A stretch of DNA of 64,000 nucleotides from Planctomyces sp. SH-PL14 (GCF_001610835.1 NZ_CP011270.1:3862001-3926000), one strand, 5' to 3'; shown: positions 41,522 through 58,716, counted from the stretch's first letter. Notes: generated by a model from the sequence alone, not told the origin. Made by a program: numbers and translations.

Positions 41522-41537
41522 CCTCGATCACGTCTCA

Positions 41538-41608
41538 GCCCGCAAATGAGAAGGCCCTTCGACGTTCTCAACGAAGGGCTTATCGTTCCATCGAGTCGGG
41601 GTGACAGG
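41538..41608 (+). repeat. Left copy of 71-bp repeat (tRNA-Pro-like 3' end plus terminator)
   Basis: The segment matches 56815-56885 in the same orientation at 66 of 71 positions by eye. Read on the minus strand it begins CCTGTCACCCCGACT, resembling the 3' end of tRNA-Pro, then runs into a hairpin of the tRNA terminator. The two copies bracket 15.3 kb, so this is a candidate attachment-site remnant (attL). Confidence 0.6.
41554..41579 (-). terminator. Hairpin terminator within left repeat
   Basis: GCCCTTCG, a 10-base loop and CGAAGGGC form an 8-bp perfect stem. On the minus strand CTTCTCATTT follows. It would have ended the tRNA transcript and still lies downstream of the small gene ending at 41521. 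Confidence 0.55.
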
Positions 41609-52343: not shown

Positions 52344-52751
52344 CTGTCGCTTGCCCCCCTTTCCGTGTTTTCGAGGAAAGCGCGGGCAACAATCTCATCC
52401 CAATCACCTCCAGCCCCGAACGGCAGGGCTCCTCTCTGCTGAAGCTGTTGGCGGCGCAGTCGTCCGCACGTGCCGGTAAAGCTGTTTGTTTCACTCGTGG
52501 GTCTGGCCGTCTCCGTCCGTCGCGTATAGGGCTCGCAACCGGGGTTCCCTGTACGCGACGGACGGAGACGGTCCAAACGACGCAGAGATTTCCCTCTCAG
52601 CATTGGTTCCGCCTTCTGTTGCGGGAAGAGCGGGCTTCTGGACACGTCGCCCCCGGGTCCTGCTTTATCTCGCGGCACGCGGCATGCTTTCCGAATGACC
52701 ACCGATGGCGCAGGAGGTTTTTCATCTGCCATACGTGAAAGGATTACACCG
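52344..52751 (+). other. Spacer with large hairpin upstream of mobile module
   Basis: About 400 bases between the glycan cluster and the mobile module. It contains the 25-bp-arm inverted repeat listed separately. No supported gene. Confidence 0.5.
52507..52571. repeat. 25-bp-arm inverted repeat, 15-base loop
   Basis: The left arm 52507-52531 begins CCGTCTCCGTCCGTCGCG and the right arm 52547-52571 ends CGCGACGGACGGAGACGG, complementary over 25 positions with one mismatch (T over G). Such a perfect stem is much stronger than a typical terminator and has no T-run after it. It lies 1.3 kb upstream of a replication-initiator gene, so it could be an origin or processing hairpin. Confidence 0.8.
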
Positions 52752-53798
52752 ATGGGCAAATCGCCGTCGAAGAAGTTGCAAGGGATCGGTACCGATCCGG
52801 TCGCCAAGCCGCTCCAAGAGCGAGCGTCCCGAAAGATCGTCGACGAGTCGATCGAGCACTGGGAGCGGCGGGTCTGGAAGAAGGGGGTTCCTGAGATCGT
52901 GACCGTGCTCGCGAAGGCCTTCGCCTACATGGCGGAGGACTACTTCAAGTTCTTCCAGATTCAGCGTGAAGGGCACTTCCACCAGCTTCGCACGTTCACG
53001 ACTTCCGAATGGGAGTCCCTCTACCTGAACCCGAACAGGGCCGGACGCTTTGTCCGCCGGAAGTGTGGTCGGTCAGTTCGCTCACTGCGCACTCTGCAGG
53101 TGGGCGTCCGGTGGTTCCTCCATCGCTGGAACCAACTCAATGCTCTCAATCGCATGGTGTTCCTGTTTCGCCTCATGACAGACAAAGCGCGGCACCTCGC
53201 CAGCTTGGAGACATGGGGGCTCCCCCTGCGGGTCGAGTTCCAGAAAGGGCTGCGCGAGATCGACGCCGACGACGGCAGTGGGTTCGAGCATCTCGACCGA
53301 GCCGAATCTCAGTTCTTCGTAACAGTTTGGCTTCCGTCGATGCTGCTCCTCGGCAAGTGTCCGGCGAAGCTGTACGAGCTGGCAGCGGCGGGGGAGCTGT
53401 CGGCTGCCTGTGAACTGCTCCGGCTCGATCCGTTCGCTGTCCAATTGCCGGTGGTCGAGCACTTCTACCGGGAACTTCTCCGAGAGAATAACCCGGCCAG
53501 GTTGGAGGCGTTCCGGCTCGCGCAGACTGAGTCTGTCGACCTGCCCAGCGGGCGAGCCAAGTTCAAGGAACAGTTCGCCGCCAAAGTGATCGCCCTCTCC
53601 CAACGCTGGTGCGAGATCGTCGGTGATTCCAAGGCGTGTCTCGATCCCGTCGACCTGTGGAACCTCTTCGATCTGATCGCCAAGGAACGGGGAAGAGGGA
53701 ACGACTCCGTGGATCTGAAGAACTACGAGACGTTCCGCAAACATGTGCGGGACAGTGAGATCGAGCTATCGACAGAAGGCTGGGACATTTTCCGCTGA
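52752..53798 (+). CDS. Hypothetical protein of the mobile module
   Basis: 348 residues from ATG 52752 (MGKSPSKKLQGIGTDPVAKP). Basic at the start, then helical with aromatic clusters (VGVRWFLHRWNQLNALNRMV) and a long helical C-terminus (FRLAQTESVDLPSGRAKF). It lies 47 bases upstream of the replication-initiator gene in the same orientation, which suggests a joint role, for example accessory DNA binding. No domain recognised. Confidence 0.7.
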   Translation: MGKSPSKKLQGIGTDPVAKPLQERASRKIVDESIEHWERRVWKKGVPEIVTVLAKAFAYMAEDYFKFFQIQREGHFHQLRTFTTSEWESLYLNPNRAGRFVRRKCGRSVRSLRTLQVGVRWFLHRWNQLNALNRMVFLFRLMTDKARHLASLETWGLPLRVEFQKGLREIDADDGSGFEHLDRAESQFFVTVWLPSMLLLGKCPAKLYELAAAGELSAACELLRLDPFAVQLPVVEHFYRELLRENNPARLEAFRLAQTESVDLPSGRAKFKEQFAAKVIALSQRWCEIVGDSKACLDPVDLWNLFDLIAKERGRGNDSVDLKNYETFRKHVRDSEIELSTEGWDIFR

Positions 53799-53845
53799 TT
53801 CTTGTCCCGGGCTAAGTGGCGGGAGCAGGGCACGCTCCCGCCACG

Positions 53846-55201
53846 ATGGCAAACGAAAAGAAGAGAGCGAGGTCCGAGACCCCGACGCCGGGGGAATGCT
53901 TCCACGTCGCCGCGTCCGGTGAGGAGCGACGAGCGTCCAAGCGAGGAGCGAGCGAGCCGGTCGCGGCGAGCCTGTGGGACTATCCGGCTGGTAGAAGCCC
54001 CAGTAACACCTACCCCCAGAGTAGTCAGGGGACATCGGGGCTGGTACCTCTGGCCGGTCGTCTTGGCTCGTTCGTCTCCGGGGGATTGGACTGGTTTGAG
54101 GGCTCATTCTCAGTCTCCTTCGATCCCATCACCCGAAGTCGCCTGATTCGGGAACTCGACGCGGTCAAGGCCCGTTGCCAGGAAACCGGCGTCCCAGACG
54201 AGTATGTCCGATTGCTGGGATGCGTCGATGTCCGAGTGCATCGGCTGGGAATCAACCGCGGCGGAGAGCGGGGAACTCACTACGCCTATCAGATCTCCTA
54301 CGCCGGGATCACGATCGGCCTGGGCGATTGGAACGCCGAGGAACGTCAGGCCGACAACCTGTTCGTTCGGATGACGGGCGAAACCTGTCTCCTCAAGGGG
54401 GCCTGGCAGGGTTACGACCTCGTTCGCGAACTGGTTCAGCAGCTCAGCGGAAGGATTCTCCGAGAGCGTTTGACGCGCGTCGATCTCTGTCTCGACGTTA
54501 CCAATGTCGCAGCCGCCGAACTTCAGCATTTGGTCGAAGCGGGTCACTTCATCACACGGTTCAAGGCGGTTCATCCACAGACCGAGCTGGTGGCCGGCCG
54601 GAGAACCGGATTCACCGCCGGGAAGAGTCCCCAGCGTCTCATCTGCTACGACAAGCTCCACGAGCAACGGAACTCGTACAACGACTTGTACCGCCAGACA
54701 CTGATCACGAGGCGATACGGGGGTGTCGAACCGGAACATGCTCTTCGCCTGGAAGCCCAGTGCAGCCGGGCTTTCCTGCTGGAGAAGGGAATCGACTCGC
54801 CGGCGGACTTGCGAGTCAAAGCCTCCCACCTCTTCCATCACGTCTGCACAGACAAGTTCCGGATTACGGATCGGCCAGTCGACCGGGCTTCCAAGAACCA
54901 GTCCCGGGCCGCGATGCACGACCTGTGGACAGCGCTGGTCACAGCCGGGGAAGTGGTCTTTGGCAAGATCGACGGCGAGCTGATTCCCGTCGACCGGTCA
55001 CTCATCAGTCCTATTCGGGTCTTCAAGCAAGGATTCGGATGCTTCGTCTCCGGCTTCAAGCAGATGGGGGTGCCGATCACCCGCCGGGCCGAGTTGGTAA
55101 GGCATGTCGTGAAGGCCGTCGACGGTGTGATGGACTCATCCGAGAAGTGGGCCGATTTCTTTGACGAGTATCGCTTGTTGCTGGAGGAGTGCAGCACATG
55201 A
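53846..55201 (+). CDS. Replication initiation factor domain protein (Rep_trans)
   Basis: 451 residues from ATG 53846 (MANEKKRARSETPTPGECFH). The first 80 residues are disordered. The Rep_trans core follows: FVSGGLDWFEGSFSVSFD, LERLTRVDLCLDVTNV in the form ILRERLTRVDLCLDVT, RLICYDKLHE, and HALRLEAQCSRAFLL. Rep_trans proteins nick and join DNA at a rolling-circle origin in plasmids, phage and conjugative transposons. The catalytic tyrosine is not placed with confidence; candidates lie in the ICYDKLHE region. Its stop overlaps the next ATG (ATGA). Confidence 0.85.
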   Translation: MANEKKRARSETPTPGECFHVAASGEERRASKRGASEPVAASLWDYPAGRSPSNTYPQSSQGTSGLVPLAGRLGSFVSGGLDWFEGSFSVSFDPITRSRLIRELDAVKARCQETGVPDEYVRLLGCVDVRVHRLGINRGGERGTHYAYQISYAGITIGLGDWNAEERQADNLFVRMTGETCLLKGAWQGYDLVRELVQQLSGRILRERLTRVDLCLDVTNVAAAELQHLVEAGHFITRFKAVHPQTELVAGRRTGFTAGKSPQRLICYDKLHEQRNSYNDLYRQTLITRRYGGVEPEHALRLEAQCSRAFLLEKGIDSPADLRVKASHLFHHVCTDKFRITDRPVDRASKNQSRAAMHDLWTALVTAGEVVFGKIDGELIPVDRSLISPIRVFKQGFGCFVSGFKQMGVPITRRAELVRHVVKAVDGVMDSSEKWADFFDEYRLLLEECST

Positions 55202-55404
55202 GCGCCACGCCTTCGCCTTCTCCGTCGGCTGCTGTTCCGATGCCCGCGGGCGCTCCCTCCTGGGTGACTGCGGATCTCATTGCCCACACTCTGCGAGTCT
55301 GGCAACGGTACTACGCCGAACCGTTGAAGCCGGAGGACGCCCTGGCGATGATCCTGGGTGTAACAGAACTGAATCGGGTCATCAGTGAAGGGTCTGGAGC
55401 ATGA
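55198..55404 (+). CDS. Small hypothetical protein between Rep and recombinase
   Basis: 68 residues from ATG 55198 (MSATPSPSPSAAVPMPAG), with four-base ATGA overlaps to both neighbours. The N-terminus is Pro/Ser-rich; the C-terminus WVTADLIAHTLRVWQRYYAE and LAMILGVTELNRV is a compact helical segment, like a small DNA-binding or recombination accessory protein. The exact tandem overlaps show it belongs to the module. Confidence 0.75.
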   Translation: MSATPSPSPSAAVPMPAGAPSWVTADLIAHTLRVWQRYYAEPLKPEDALAMILGVTELNRVISEGSGA

Positions 55405-56891
55405 AGCGTTTCGTCGCACTGGCACGGGTCAGCAGTCGCGAACAGGAACGGGAGGGGTTTTCGCTCGAGGTCCAGGAGGAGGCGCTCCGTCGGTACGCCC
55501 TTCAGCATGGAGGCGAGATCGTCCGGTTTTTCAAGATCGCTGAGACAGCCAGCAAGACCGATGAGCGGAAAGCGTTTCGCGAGTTGGTCCGGTACGCGAA
55601 GCAGAACGCCCCGGGCCTCGACGGGCTCTTGTTCTACAAGGTCGACCGAGCGGCGCGGAACCTGTTCGACTATGTCGAGCTCGAACGGCTCGAATCTGAG
55701 TACAACGTCCCGTTCATCTCAGTCAGCCAGCCGACGGAGAACACTCCGTCTGGCCGAATGATGCGGCGGACGATGGCCAATATGGCCAGCTTCTACACCG
55801 AGCAGCAGTCGGTGGATGTCCGGGAAGGACTCGCCCGGCGGGTGCAAGAAGGCTGGTTCGTCGGGAAAGCTCCGTACGGTTACCGGAACGTCCGCAAGGA
55901 CGGCCGCAGCGTCGTTGAGGTCGATCCACACGCGGCCGACAACATCCGGCGGATGTTCCACCTCTACGCCTACGAGCCGCTGACGCTCGACAAGCTCATC
56001 GATCGTCTGACCGAGGAGGGCCGAGTCTACCGCCTGCCGGCGATGCCGTTCGCCAAAGGCTCGGTCCACAACATCCTCCGCGACCGGGCCTACATCGGAG
56101 AGGTCGAGTTCCGGGGCAATTGGTATCCGGGGAAGCAGGAGCCAATCGTCGACCGTGGAACCTGGGATCGAGTTCAGGCCATCGTCCGCGGCTGCGTCTA
56201 TCACAGCCACGAGATGACCTACGCAGGCGAGTTCATGACGTGTGGTCATTGCGGACACCCGATCACGGGCGAGCGGAAGACGCGTCAGACAAAGAACGGC
56301 ACGCGGGAGTACGTTTACTACCGTTGCTCGCGATACACCGCCGTAGGTCACCCCCGCACGCGGGTACCCGAAGCCGAGTTCGACCGGCAGATCCTTGAGC
56401 TCTTCCGCCGGATGAAGATTCAGGATCCGGAGGTCGTCGAATGGTTCCGCGCCGTGCTGCGGTCGCAGTCCAAGGACGCCCAGGAGGAGAGCCAAGCGCA
56501 GAACTCTGAACTCCAGCGCCAGCGAACGCTCCTCATCACTCAGCAGAGCCGTCTCATCGACATGCGGATCGCAGAGGAGATCGATCAAGAGACGTTCGCC
56601 CGGAAGCAGACTGAGCTACGCGACCGACTGGCTTCGATCACACTGCAGCTGGAGGTCGTCGACCGGTCGCGATCGGAACTGGCCGACTTGGCGGTGAAAG
56701 TGTTTGAACTTTCGCAAACGCTGTCTGAGAAGTGGCTTACAGCGGACTACGCGACGAAGCGGCGAATTCTCGAAATCGTCTGTTTGAACTGCCGCCTCGA
56801 TAGCGGAAGTCTTTGCCCGCAAATGAGAAAGCCCTTCGACGTTCTCGCCGAAGGGCTTCTCGTTCCATCAAGTCGGGGTGACAGGATTTGA
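55401..56891 (+). CDS. Large serine recombinase
   Basis: 496 residues. The resolvase domain begins MKRFVALARVSSREQE with catalytic serine (S11 or S12) and includes LLFYKVDRAARNLFDYVELE and TANMASFYTEQQSVDVREGL-type active-site arginines. The recombinase domain follows (GKAPYGYRNV, YIGEVEFRGNWYPGKQEP), then a zinc ribbon (TCGHCGHPITGERK to YRCSRY) and a coiled-coil helix. It should integrate and excise DNA by serine chemistry. The last 25 codons, from LCPQMRKPF to RGDRI, are encoded within the tRNA-derived repeat. Confidence 0.95.
   Translation: MKRFVALARVSSREQEREGFSLEVQEEALRRYALQHGGEIVRFFKIAETASKTDERKAFRELVRYAKQNAPGLDGLLFYKVDRAARNLFDYVELERLESEYNVPFISVSQPTENTPSGRMMRRTMANMASFYTEQQSVDVREGLARRVQEGWFVGKAPYGYRNVRKDGRSVVEVDPHAADNIRRMFHLYAYEPLTLDKLIDRLTEEGRVYRLPAMPFAKGSVHNILRDRAYIGEVEFRGNWYPGKQEPIVDRGTWDRVQAIVRGCVYHSHEMTYAGEFMTCGHCGHPITGERKTRQTKNGTREYVYYRCSRYTAVGHPRTRVPEAEFDRQILELFRRMKIQDPEVVEWFRAVLRSQSKDAQEESQAQNSELQRQRTLLITQQSRLIDMRIAEEIDQETFARKQTELRDRLASITLQLEVVDRSRSELADLAVKVFELSQTLSEKWLTADYATKRRILEIVCLNCRLDSGSLCPQMRKPFDVLAEGLLVPSSRGDRI
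56815..56885 (+). repeat. Right copy of 71-bp repeat (tRNA-Pro-like 3' end plus terminator)
   Basis: Matches 41538-41608 with five differences. Here the tRNA-like part extends further: read on the minus strand GTTCAAATCCTGTCACCCCGA, the T-loop and acceptor of tRNA-Pro; sequence beyond it does not fold into a tRNA. It is a candidate attR, and its coding strand forms the serine recombinase C-terminus. Confidence 0.6.
56831..56856 (-). terminator. Hairpin terminator within right repeat
   Basis: GCCCTTCG, 10-base loop, CGAAGGGC; extended by one A-T pair here. On the minus strand TTCTCATTTG follows, a tRNA-style terminator. It could also end transcripts of the convergent tyrosine-recombinase gene. 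Confidence 0.55.
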
Positions 56892-56937
56892 ACTTGCGGG
56901 ACAGATCGGGGCGCGACGATCTCCGGTCCCGCACGCG

Positions 56938-58461
56938 TCAATCCGATAACGCTAGTAAGAATTGGCTCTCCAACCACTTCAGACCTCTCGTCAGCAACGT
57001 TGTAGGAACGGTGGTGTAGTGCCGATCCGACATCGACTTTGGCGCGTGGTCGAGGAAGACTGCCTCGATGCCATTGAACTCAGCGTTGTCTCGCAGAAGT
57101 GAGGCGCTGGTTTTCTTCAGGCTCTTGAAGTCCCCGGTTTGCCCGAGGGATTTCCGAAGGCGTTCGAAGGCGACGCGGATCGGATCCCGTCGAACGAGCT
57201 TGCCGTTCCTGAGTTCCTCGCCTCGAAGAGTCTTCCCATTCGAGGAAAGCAGCAAATGGTTCGGATCGTCAGATCGTAGCTTCTTCAAGAAGCTGAGCGT
57301 GATGCCCCACAGCTTGTACGTGACCGTGGGAACCCGCTCGAAGTGGATGGTCTTTCCTCGCTTGCGAGTCAGTGTTCCGGCGTCCCAATCGACGCTCTCA
57401 GGCTTCAGCGTGCTGATGTCAACCTGCGTCATTCCGCAATTCAGGGCCAGGAGGATGTAAAGCTTCAGGTCCTCGGGAGCCGCTGCGAACAGTTCGCGGA
57501 TCTGTTCCACAGTGTAGGTTTTGATGACGGGCGGTTCCCGAGTGATCCGCAGAGCCCGGGACGTCAAGTTCTTCGGGAGCTGGGTAAGAACGTCTGTCTC
57601 GTGGAGCCAGCGAATGAACATCTTCGCCGTCTTGAAGATGTCCGCCGCATATGTCTTCGTGAAGCGTTTTCCTTCGCAGTCCTGCAGCAACGCCTGATGG
57701 AGATCATCGACATGCTTGCCCCCGACTGTCGAAGTATCAAGGCCTGGGCCGAGCTTTCTCTGCATGTACTGCAAGTGCCGGCGGATGTTGTCGGCAGCTG
57801 TGGGAGTGATCCCCGACTCACGCCGCTTGATGACGTATCTGTCGACGAATGCCTTCAAGGTGGACTCGGGAGGCGTCTCTTGCGCGGGCTGGACGCTGGC
57901 GGCGGCGAGGCGATCCTTCCAGATCACACTGCTGATGTACCTCTCGACAATTCGTTCCAGTTCCTCTTCGCGATCCTCGGCAACGCCCAGTTCGTCAACG
58001 AGATCGACTGCAGTTGAGCGCGCAACCTTGGCCACATCGGACTGGGCGAGCGGTGCCTGGATCTGACCAATCCGCAGCCCAAATCGACGAACTGGGTAAT
58101 CTGTCCGCCTGCTGACTCCCGGTGGCTTCCGGCTGTTCATTCGCCGATGGAGGTCATCGATCTTTGCCGCAGCGACAATCGCTGCCGATTGGTCTTCCAC
58201 CGTTCGTGCGGCAAGAAGAACTCGCTCCCACTCCGCGATGGCTCGTTCGTACTCCGCTCGATGTGGTTTTTCGAATGCCATGTGAGCGTCAATCAGTAGC
58301 TTCTGACGCTCAAAGTCCGCCAAGGCCTTGGAGTAGGCCTCCGCGTCAGACTTTCCATTCCCTCCATCGAAGTACAGGATCCGCCCCTTGTACATCTTCT
58401 TCCATCGCCCACGTCGTGCCGCTCCAGTCTGCCACGTCAGCTTGAATCTCTTTCGTGCCAT
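56938..58461 (-). CDS. Tyrosine-type site-specific integrase, atypical active site
   Basis: From ATG 58461 (MARKRFKLTWQTGAARRGRW) 507 residues; longer upstream frames are rejected. An N-terminal arm-binding-like basic region, a core-binding SAM-like domain (LKAFVDRYVIKRRESGITPT), and a catalytic domain. Box I reads LALNCGMTQVDISTL, with T where the first Arg usually stands. The beta-hairpin lysine may be in KRGKTIHFE. The usual H-x-L-R is SLKKTSASLL (no His or Arg), but LDHAPKSMSDRHYTTV keeps His and the nucleophile Tyr. Its stop lies 52 bases from the right tRNA-derived repeat, typical for an integrase next to its att site. Confidence 0.88.
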   Translation of the reverse strand: MARKRFKLTWQTGAARRGRWKKMYKGRILYFDGGNGKSDAEAYSKALADFERQKLLIDAHMAFEKPHRAEYERAIAEWERVLLAARTVEDQSAAIVAAAKIDDLHRRMNSRKPPGVSRRTDYPVRRFGLRIGQIQAPLAQSDVAKVARSTAVDLVDELGVAEDREEELERIVERYISSVIWKDRLAAASVQPAQETPPESTLKAFVDRYVIKRRESGITPTAADNIRRHLQYMQRKLGPGLDTSTVGGKHVDDLHQALLQDCEGKRFTKTYAADIFKTAKMFIRWLHETDVLTQLPKNLTSRALRITREPPVIKTYTVEQIRELFAAAPEDLKLYILLALNCGMTQVDISTLKPESVDWDAGTLTRKRGKTIHFERVPTVTYKLWGITLSFLKKLRSDDPNHLLLSSNGKTLRGEELRNGKLVRRDPIRVAFERLRKSLGQTGDFKSLKKTSASLLRDNAEFNGIEAVFLDHAPKSMSDRHYTTVPTTLLTRGLKWLESQFLLALSD

Positions 58462-58716
58462 CTCCCCGTGTTCCCCAGCGCGAATTGATACAAAACTCGG
58501 ATACAATTCTTCGCAGGAAGTGCCAGCTTCTGTATCACTGACCTCAAGAATCCCTGACGATTTTTGCATTTCGCACGCCGTTGGCGTGCCCTGCTTCGGA
58601 CGGCCCGCTGCCGGGGGCTGCGGATTTCTTTTTCGCCGATGCGGCCGCTGTTGGCCGTTCTTCGAGCGGGTGTGCCCATCGGAAGACGACATCGCACTGA
58701 ACAGAACAGCCCGCTT

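Follow-up and report, generated by a model that had tools for sequence, protein, structure and literature searches.

The DNA analyzed here, referred to below as the window, is a stretch of 64,000 nucleotides from Planctomyces sp. SH-PL14. It contains an element of ∼4.48 kb at positions 52415–56897, its extent being set by homology with two other copies in the same genome. The element consists, in order, of a left block, a hairpin, ORF1, Rep, SMALL, SREC and a 3′ fragment of a tRNA-Pro gene. The features, in window coordinates, are as follows:

52415–52504, + strand: left-end block (CCCCGAACGGCAGGGCTCC ... GGCGGCGCAGTCGTCCG), where homology with the two other copies starts
52505–52573, + strand: conserved hairpin with 27-bp arms and loop CTCGCAACCGGGGTT, the sole strong hairpin in the window, with an identical core in three copies and covariation
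52752–53798, + strand: ORF1, predicted all-helical protein of 348 aa, with homologues directly upstream of Rep elsewhere
53846–55201, + strand: Rep, Rep_trans-type rolling-circle replication initiator of 451 aa, from PF02486 (E = 6.5e-4), invariant motifs and fold
55198–55404, + strand: SMALL, 68 aa, putative recombinase partner (candidate directionality factor), overlapping the start of SREC by 4 bp at most homologous loci
55401–56891, + strand: SREC, large serine recombinase of 496 aa (PF00239, PF07508, PF13408), whose homologues end at tRNA genes
56825–56861, + strand: palindrome GAGAAAGCCCTTCG...CGAAGGGCTTCTC (GCCCTTCGACGTnCTCGnCGAAGGGC) in the last SREC codons, near-identical in DNA among homologues across genera
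56873–56897, − strand: tRNA-Pro 3′-end fragment, the right end of the element, matching the intact tRNA-Pro(CGG) at C1:2846286

A previous reading of the sequence alone (the sequence-only reading) had described a hairpin, an uncharacterized gene, a Rep_trans gene, a small ORF and a serine recombinase, the last three joined by ATGA overlaps. All of these are present. Both the Rep/SMALL and SMALL/SREC junctions are exact ATGA overlaps, and the hairpin arms comprise 27 pairs when G-T pairs are counted. The two enzymes named, a Rep_trans initiator and a serine recombinase, are borne out by the motifs, predicted fold and three SREC domains described below, and the proposal of a mobile element by the three copies in the genome and a gene set that recurs in three other planctomycetes. 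No conjugation or coupling-protein genes were found in the window element, again as stated by that reading; related elements with SMALL and SREC do carry some. The interval it gave, 52507–55404, was too short, since homology with the two genomic copies spans 52415 to ∼56897, and it overlooked four things: the targeting of tRNA genes, the piece of tRNA gene that closes the element on the right, both sister copies and the relatives bearing conjugation genes.

All four frames of the element are open in the window copy. The palindrome at 56825–56861 is nearly identical in DNA between genera whose SREC proteins share 58–73%, and it may be terminator-like or a recombination site. The minus strand encodes a neighboring tyrosine integrase at 56938–58692; as a candidate for the element's recombinase it was dismissed, since it lies outside the homology common to the three copies. 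About 11 kb to the left of the element, at window positions ∼41528–41608, is a remnant of the C-terminal end of a recombinase of the SREC family (E 2.7e-6).

Rep matches the Pfam Rep_trans family (PF02486) with 19.8 bits (E = 6.5e-4), which is below the cut-off of 29.6 bits, and 11 of 29 Rep relatives match at E ≤ 0.01. Residues D213, D217, Y268, K270, R301 and E303 are invariant in these 29 relatives. The conserved motifs R211-x-D213, Y268-D-K270-x2-E273 and R301-x-E303 are those by which Rep_trans proteins are recognized (RxD, YxKxxE and an acidic metal site; PMC5714925). In the predicted model of Rep (pLDDT 84) Y268 falls within the strand 263–269, placing the predicted catalytic tyrosine on a β-strand, and the only significant matches in the PDB are 4cij, 4cwc and 4cwe, all pT181-type initiators. 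Because of the invariant motifs and a predicted fold that matches only these initiators, we consider Rep a genuine Rep_trans initiator by sequence and model, despite the sub-cut-off Pfam score. Relatives of Rep occur in 27 of 397 genomes. A search of phage, plasmid and viral-contig records gave no match, nor did a first scan of genome contigs with Rep alone. ORF1 had no match in Pfam, NCBIfam or PHROG; its AF2 model is all-helical and weak (pLDDT 64), and a fold search of the PDB with it found no match. In G219 and G270 a homologue of ORF1 immediately precedes Rep, and weaker homologues do so in L070, L071 and L143.

SREC is a large serine recombinase, with Resolvase, Recombinase and zinc-ribbon domains (PF00239, PF07508 and PF13408) all above cut-off and an invariant RVS catalytic motif. 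Of 198 planctomycete genomes, 38 have homologues of SREC at E ≤ 1e-60. Among the 79 homologous loci with enough sequence, the recombinase frame runs into an intact, oppositely oriented tRNA gene in 56 (46 Pro, 6 Ala and 4 Ser). Most of the other 23 loci have a tRNA fragment that is broken after ∼24 nt, in the T-arm, or after ∼41 nt, in the anticodon loop (...GTCCCGAA); the fragments of the two sister copies (L009 and L010) and of L023 break at the ∼41-nt point. At most homologous loci SMALL lies before SREC and the two overlap by 4 bp. Many of the larger elements, 29 loci in all, contain TrwC relaxase or coupling-protein genes. By sequence, SMALL and SREC thus form a planctomycete integration module that is used by planctomycete ICEs and IMEs as well. 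Comparison of the occupied site in G270 with a related empty site in its sibling G317 reveals an insert of ∼9.7 kb at the 3′-end of tRNA-Ala, with AAGTGGAGG at both ends. A direct repeat of ∼20 bp is likewise found at the ends of L132. No direct repeat of the tRNA end was found at the far end of the element in the other loci examined or at the copies in the window genome. Homologues of SREC also occur in records labelled Synechococcus, Cyanobacteria, Bacteroidales, Alphaproteobacteria, Anaerolineales and Acidobacteria (L253, L257, L270, L280, L300 and L307), which may reflect transfer or mis-binned contigs.

The host genome is closed (8.44 Mb) and holds three copies of the element with common ends, the sister copies lying at C1:1.475 Mb (L009) and C1:2.749 Mb (L010). 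L009 has stops in rep, and its recombinase gene is split by an IS-like insert of 2.5 kb with 35-bp inverted repeats; in L010, part of rep is deleted and a stop interrupts the recombinase. Both sister copies are therefore dead, which leaves the window copy as the sole intact one. The dN/dS ratio between copies is 0.05–0.26, and thus the copies diverged under purifying selection; they are therefore probably separate arrivals or old working copies rather than recent duplicates. The sister copies carry 41 bp of the tRNA-Pro gene at their ends, compared with 25 bp in the window copy, and they share 14 bp beyond the left start of homology with it. Only tRNA fragments, and no intact tRNA gene, lie beside any of the three copies, and the intact tRNA-Pro(CGG) of the genome is unoccupied. 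No consistent core, core dinucleotide or direct repeat flanking the three copies was found at their ends. Elsewhere in the genome, recombinase tails adjoin intact tRNA-Pro(TGG) at C1:5507144 (L024) and tRNA-Pro(GGG) at C1:1373.3 kb (L032), and by sequence are probable scars of former insertions.

These properties raise the question of whether the window copy is itself the inactive relic of an old tRNA island that a chromosome rearrangement has relocated, its frames having stayed open by chance. It lies away from a tRNA gene with a fragment of only 25 bp, and its sisters are broken by stops, deletion and an IS. We nevertheless regard this explanation as unlikely: all four frames of the window copy are open, and its divergence from the sister copies bears the mark of purifying selection.

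The arms of the hairpin occupy 52505–52531 and 52547–52573 and enclose a loop of 15 nt. It is the only hairpin that scores ≥15 in the whole 64-kb window. A core of 29 nt is identical in all three copies while the flanks have strongly diverged, so a chance hairpin is excluded. A covariance model was built from the window hairpin, its two sisters and L072, without the hairpins of inovirus prophages. It matched nine places in the 8.44-Mb genome, all in Rep- or inovirus-type elements or islands: the three copies of the element, another Rep element, at 4.372 Mb (L013), whose integrase is of the tyrosine type, two inovirus prophages at 7.150 and 7.172 Mb that both encode Rep and a Zot-family ATPase, and three islands akin to those prophages. 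None of 20 control loci matched, and an Rfam search returned no match. In a scan of 297 genomes at E ≤ 1e-5, the hairpin was found beyond its own genome only in seven genomes of one genus. There a related left block with a fixed left boundary precedes it, and in 6 of the 10 loci with enough sequence a Rep gene follows 0.6–0.9 kb downstream in the same orientation; the remaining four have none. The expectation of the sequence-only reading that a hairpin would be found near Rep in other genomes is thus upheld for these six loci. Across 14 distinct hairpins, compensatory changes occur at 19 of 26 stem positions and the apex GGGCTC...GGGGTTCCC is largely kept. Two elements with the full gene set differ in this respect, G270 being without a long hairpin and G219 having one of a different type, which speaks against a strict requirement for the hairpin.

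Several related observations were made in these scans. The left block and hairpin stand alone, as a unit of ∼173 bp with the same left boundary, at L224, L227, L230, L232 and L235; L227 has two such blocks 1.6 kb apart and L230 two copies 728 bp apart. Rep is absent nearby in four of these loci, and L230 is cut by a contig end. The solo copies are possibly non-autonomous elements or remnants. A second class of hairpins (class A, GCCCCTTCCGCCTTCGCCGTCGCG...), found near Rep at seven loci, was tried as part of the window-hairpin family; many identical copies in some of the 297 genomes indicate that it is not Rep-specific, and it was not counted as support. In G073, G079, G168 and G228, each genome has numerous near-identical copies of a different hairpin with 30-bp arms (GCCCCTTCCGCCTTCGCCGTCGC...), some of them near Rep genes. 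In the host genome, inovirus-like prophages and islands with arrays of diverged ∼100-aa genes lie at 0.88–0.90 and 7.15–7.20 Mb (L012, L014 and L156–L158). The genes of these prophages include a Zot-family ATPase, Rep and a ParB-like gene, the Zot-type gene being present in L012 and L014.

The sequence-only reading had taken the hairpin to be an origin nicked by Rep, which is probably wrong. Such a double-strand origin, bound and nicked by Rep in the way that RepC of pT181 acts on its origin hairpin, would agree with the position of the hairpin, which precedes rep in the same orientation both in the window and in six elements of the other genus, with a conserved apical loop, and with the nicking of hairpin-exposed sites by Rep_trans proteins (PMC5714925). 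An origin and the specificity of its Rep are, however, expected to diverge jointly, and here hairpins are 89–100% identical between elements whose Reps share only 31–37% (L225/L228, L226/L229 and L228/L229). The apex is also shared with the inovirus prophages, whose Rep is 21% identical, and this hairpin is missing from G219 and G270, which have all four genes. We therefore consider a double-strand origin to be quite unlikely.

A site recognized by the host, or by a helper common to several elements, is not expected to track the divergence of Rep, and the hairpin fits recognition of this kind. By its sequence, it is more likely a single-strand origin or another shared ssDNA site than a Rep-specific nick origin. 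A single-strand origin, which requires host enzymes only (PMC5714925), is our tentative choice, because the hairpin is conserved across divergent Reps while an origin read by Rep should follow Rep; its orientation relative to rep is also constant. A role as a packaging or other helper signal appears improbable. The latter role belongs to a reading of the element as a satellite of filamentous phages, which would replicate by its own Rep and share a packaging signal with the co-resident inovirus prophages. Two resident prophages (Zot-family ATPase, related Rep) do have a hairpin whose apex is the same, detected although their own sequences had not gone into the model, and the element is small (4.5 kb) and without coat genes. 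The outer stems are nevertheless unlike those of the inovirus hairpin, Rep is without a match in the phage collection or viral contigs, and the hairpin is present in a genus without a demonstrated hairpin-bearing inovirus, all of which makes a satellite a doubtful proposition. In its broadest form, in which the hairpin block would be a cis-acting signal for ssDNA handling or packaging common to planctomycete inoviruses and small Rep elements, the latter being tRNA-integrating filamentous-phage satellites with exchangeable serine and tyrosine recombinases and relatives with antiviral defence genes, the proposal is similarly improbable; if true, the solo hairpin blocks would be its non-autonomous followers. 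That Rep is a transposase acting by rolling-circle transposition, IS91- or Helitron-like, from a fixed left end with SREC secondary, is very unlikely: a fixed left boundary with unrelated flanks, solo left-end and hairpin copies in the other genus and three copies at unrelated sites are in its favor, but the fold and motifs of Rep are those of Rep_trans and not HUH, the right ends are likewise fixed, at the tRNA fragment, and most SREC relatives end at tRNA genes, which requires site-specific recombination.

Taken together, the element is probably a small integrating rolling-circle replicon of a planctomycete host, comparable to an integrated rolling-circle plasmid. We infer the following cycle. 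SREC, probably with SMALL as cofactor, would excise the element as a circle and insert this circle at the 3′ part of a tRNA gene. The tRNA would stay intact, the recombinase end of the element supplying the 3′ part that the circular form carries, so that the tRNA is restored upon insertion. The predicted circle junction is SREC end-AAG-TCGGGG...GGTCCCGAA (the 3′ half of tRNA-Pro) joined to TGGCCGTTTTTGCTCCCGAGCGG or CCCCGAACGGCAGGG. In the circular state Rep would nick an origin and begin rolling-circle replication, and the displaced single strand would be converted to duplex DNA, or processed in some other way, at the conserved hairpin close to the left end. Evidence against an integrating replicon consists of the position of the copies away from intact tRNA genes, the lack of a consistent core or direct repeat at their ends, the free tRNA-Pro(CGG), the lack of a Rep match in phage, plasmid and viral records, the deviating hairpin situation in G270 and G219, the hairpins found alone and the two dead copies.

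We also compared the element with known systems. The Rep_trans/MobT IMEs and ICEs of Firmicutes, namely Tn916, ICEBs1 and the streptococcal IMEs, are likewise integrated and have their own recombinase and a Rep_trans-type initiator, which in known cases can act in replication and/or transfer; some of these IMEs have serine recombinases (PMC5704250, PMC6499999). By analogy, Rep could act as a relaxase in a MobT-like role. The window element differs in its phylum, its distant Rep, the lack of a coupling-protein or conjugation gene, and tRNA targeting by a serine recombinase; in the review of such elements, tRNA genes are the targets of tyrosine integrases, and IMEs with site-specific serine recombinases disrupt genes. 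With the pT181-family rolling-circle plasmids it shares the initiator motifs, the predicted fold (4cij, 4cwc and 4cwe) and a plasmid-sized unit; unlike them it is integrated, with a recombinase and a tRNA attachment segment, and the Pfam score of its Rep is sub-cut-off. The AICEs of actinomycetes (pSAM2 type) are integrated at tRNA genes and replicate by a rolling circle after excision, using tyrosine integrases and an FtsK-like transfer protein. The window element has no tyrosine integrase, and no FtsK/SpoIIIE-like transfer protein, as expected of an AICE, was found among its four frames. Planctomycete MobF ICEs and IMEs use the same SMALL-SREC module at tRNA 3′-ends but have TrwC relaxase and/or T4CP genes where the window element has ORF1 and Rep. 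Filamentous phages and their satellites (CTXphi, RS1 and TLC) resemble it in a Rep_trans initiator (CTXphi; PMC5714925) and have an ssDNA life cycle, and the hairpin apex is common to the element and the resident inovirus prophages. In contrast to these phages, the element is without coat genes, a domain search of 52415–56897 found no Zot-type gene, the mark of an inovirus prophage, and it has its own serine recombinase instead of relying on host XerCD.

The same gene set recurs in other planctomycetes. ORF1-Rep-SMALL-SREC lies flush with tRNA-Ala in G219 and G270, which belong to two genera, and a Phycisphaerae MAG (L303) has Rep-SMALL-SREC next to tRNA-Pro. Relatives of Rep are more often followed by a tyrosine integrase, or lie within inovirus-like prophages, and several of the tyrosine integrase ORFs next to them likewise extend into tRNA genes. 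A tree of Rep sequences pairs the window Rep with that of a tyrosine-type element (97/96) and the G270 Rep with another (100/99). Since serine and tyrosine types stand side by side, the recombinase module has been exchanged at least twice. By sequence, the new aspects of the element are a serine recombinase family at tRNA genes, the exchange of modules and a hairpin common to inoviruses; overall it resembles the Rep_trans IMEs of Firmicutes. Across planctomycetes, members of this recombinase family end directly at tRNA-Pro, -Ala and -Ser genes, while in the literature searched it is tyrosine integrases, and not serine recombinases, that target tRNA genes. One replication module is combined with exchanged recombinases, and a covarying DNA hairpin links small Rep elements to filamentous prophages of the same genome. 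For planctomycete genetics, the element offers a candidate small replicon and tRNA-targeting serine recombinases with predictable sites.

The large genes next to Rep-integrase elements of other planctomycetes are for the most part defence-like (L139:10300–14490, L064:5252–8047, L065:11112–15410, L069:2749–7089, L073:2509–7143, L225:929–2873 and L228:420–2777). They include metallophosphoesterase-NACHT-LRR, MmeI type IIG, TmtA, TIR, SIR2-kinase and Cap4-like genes, and eight of nine tested proteins beside such elements matched a PADLOC model.
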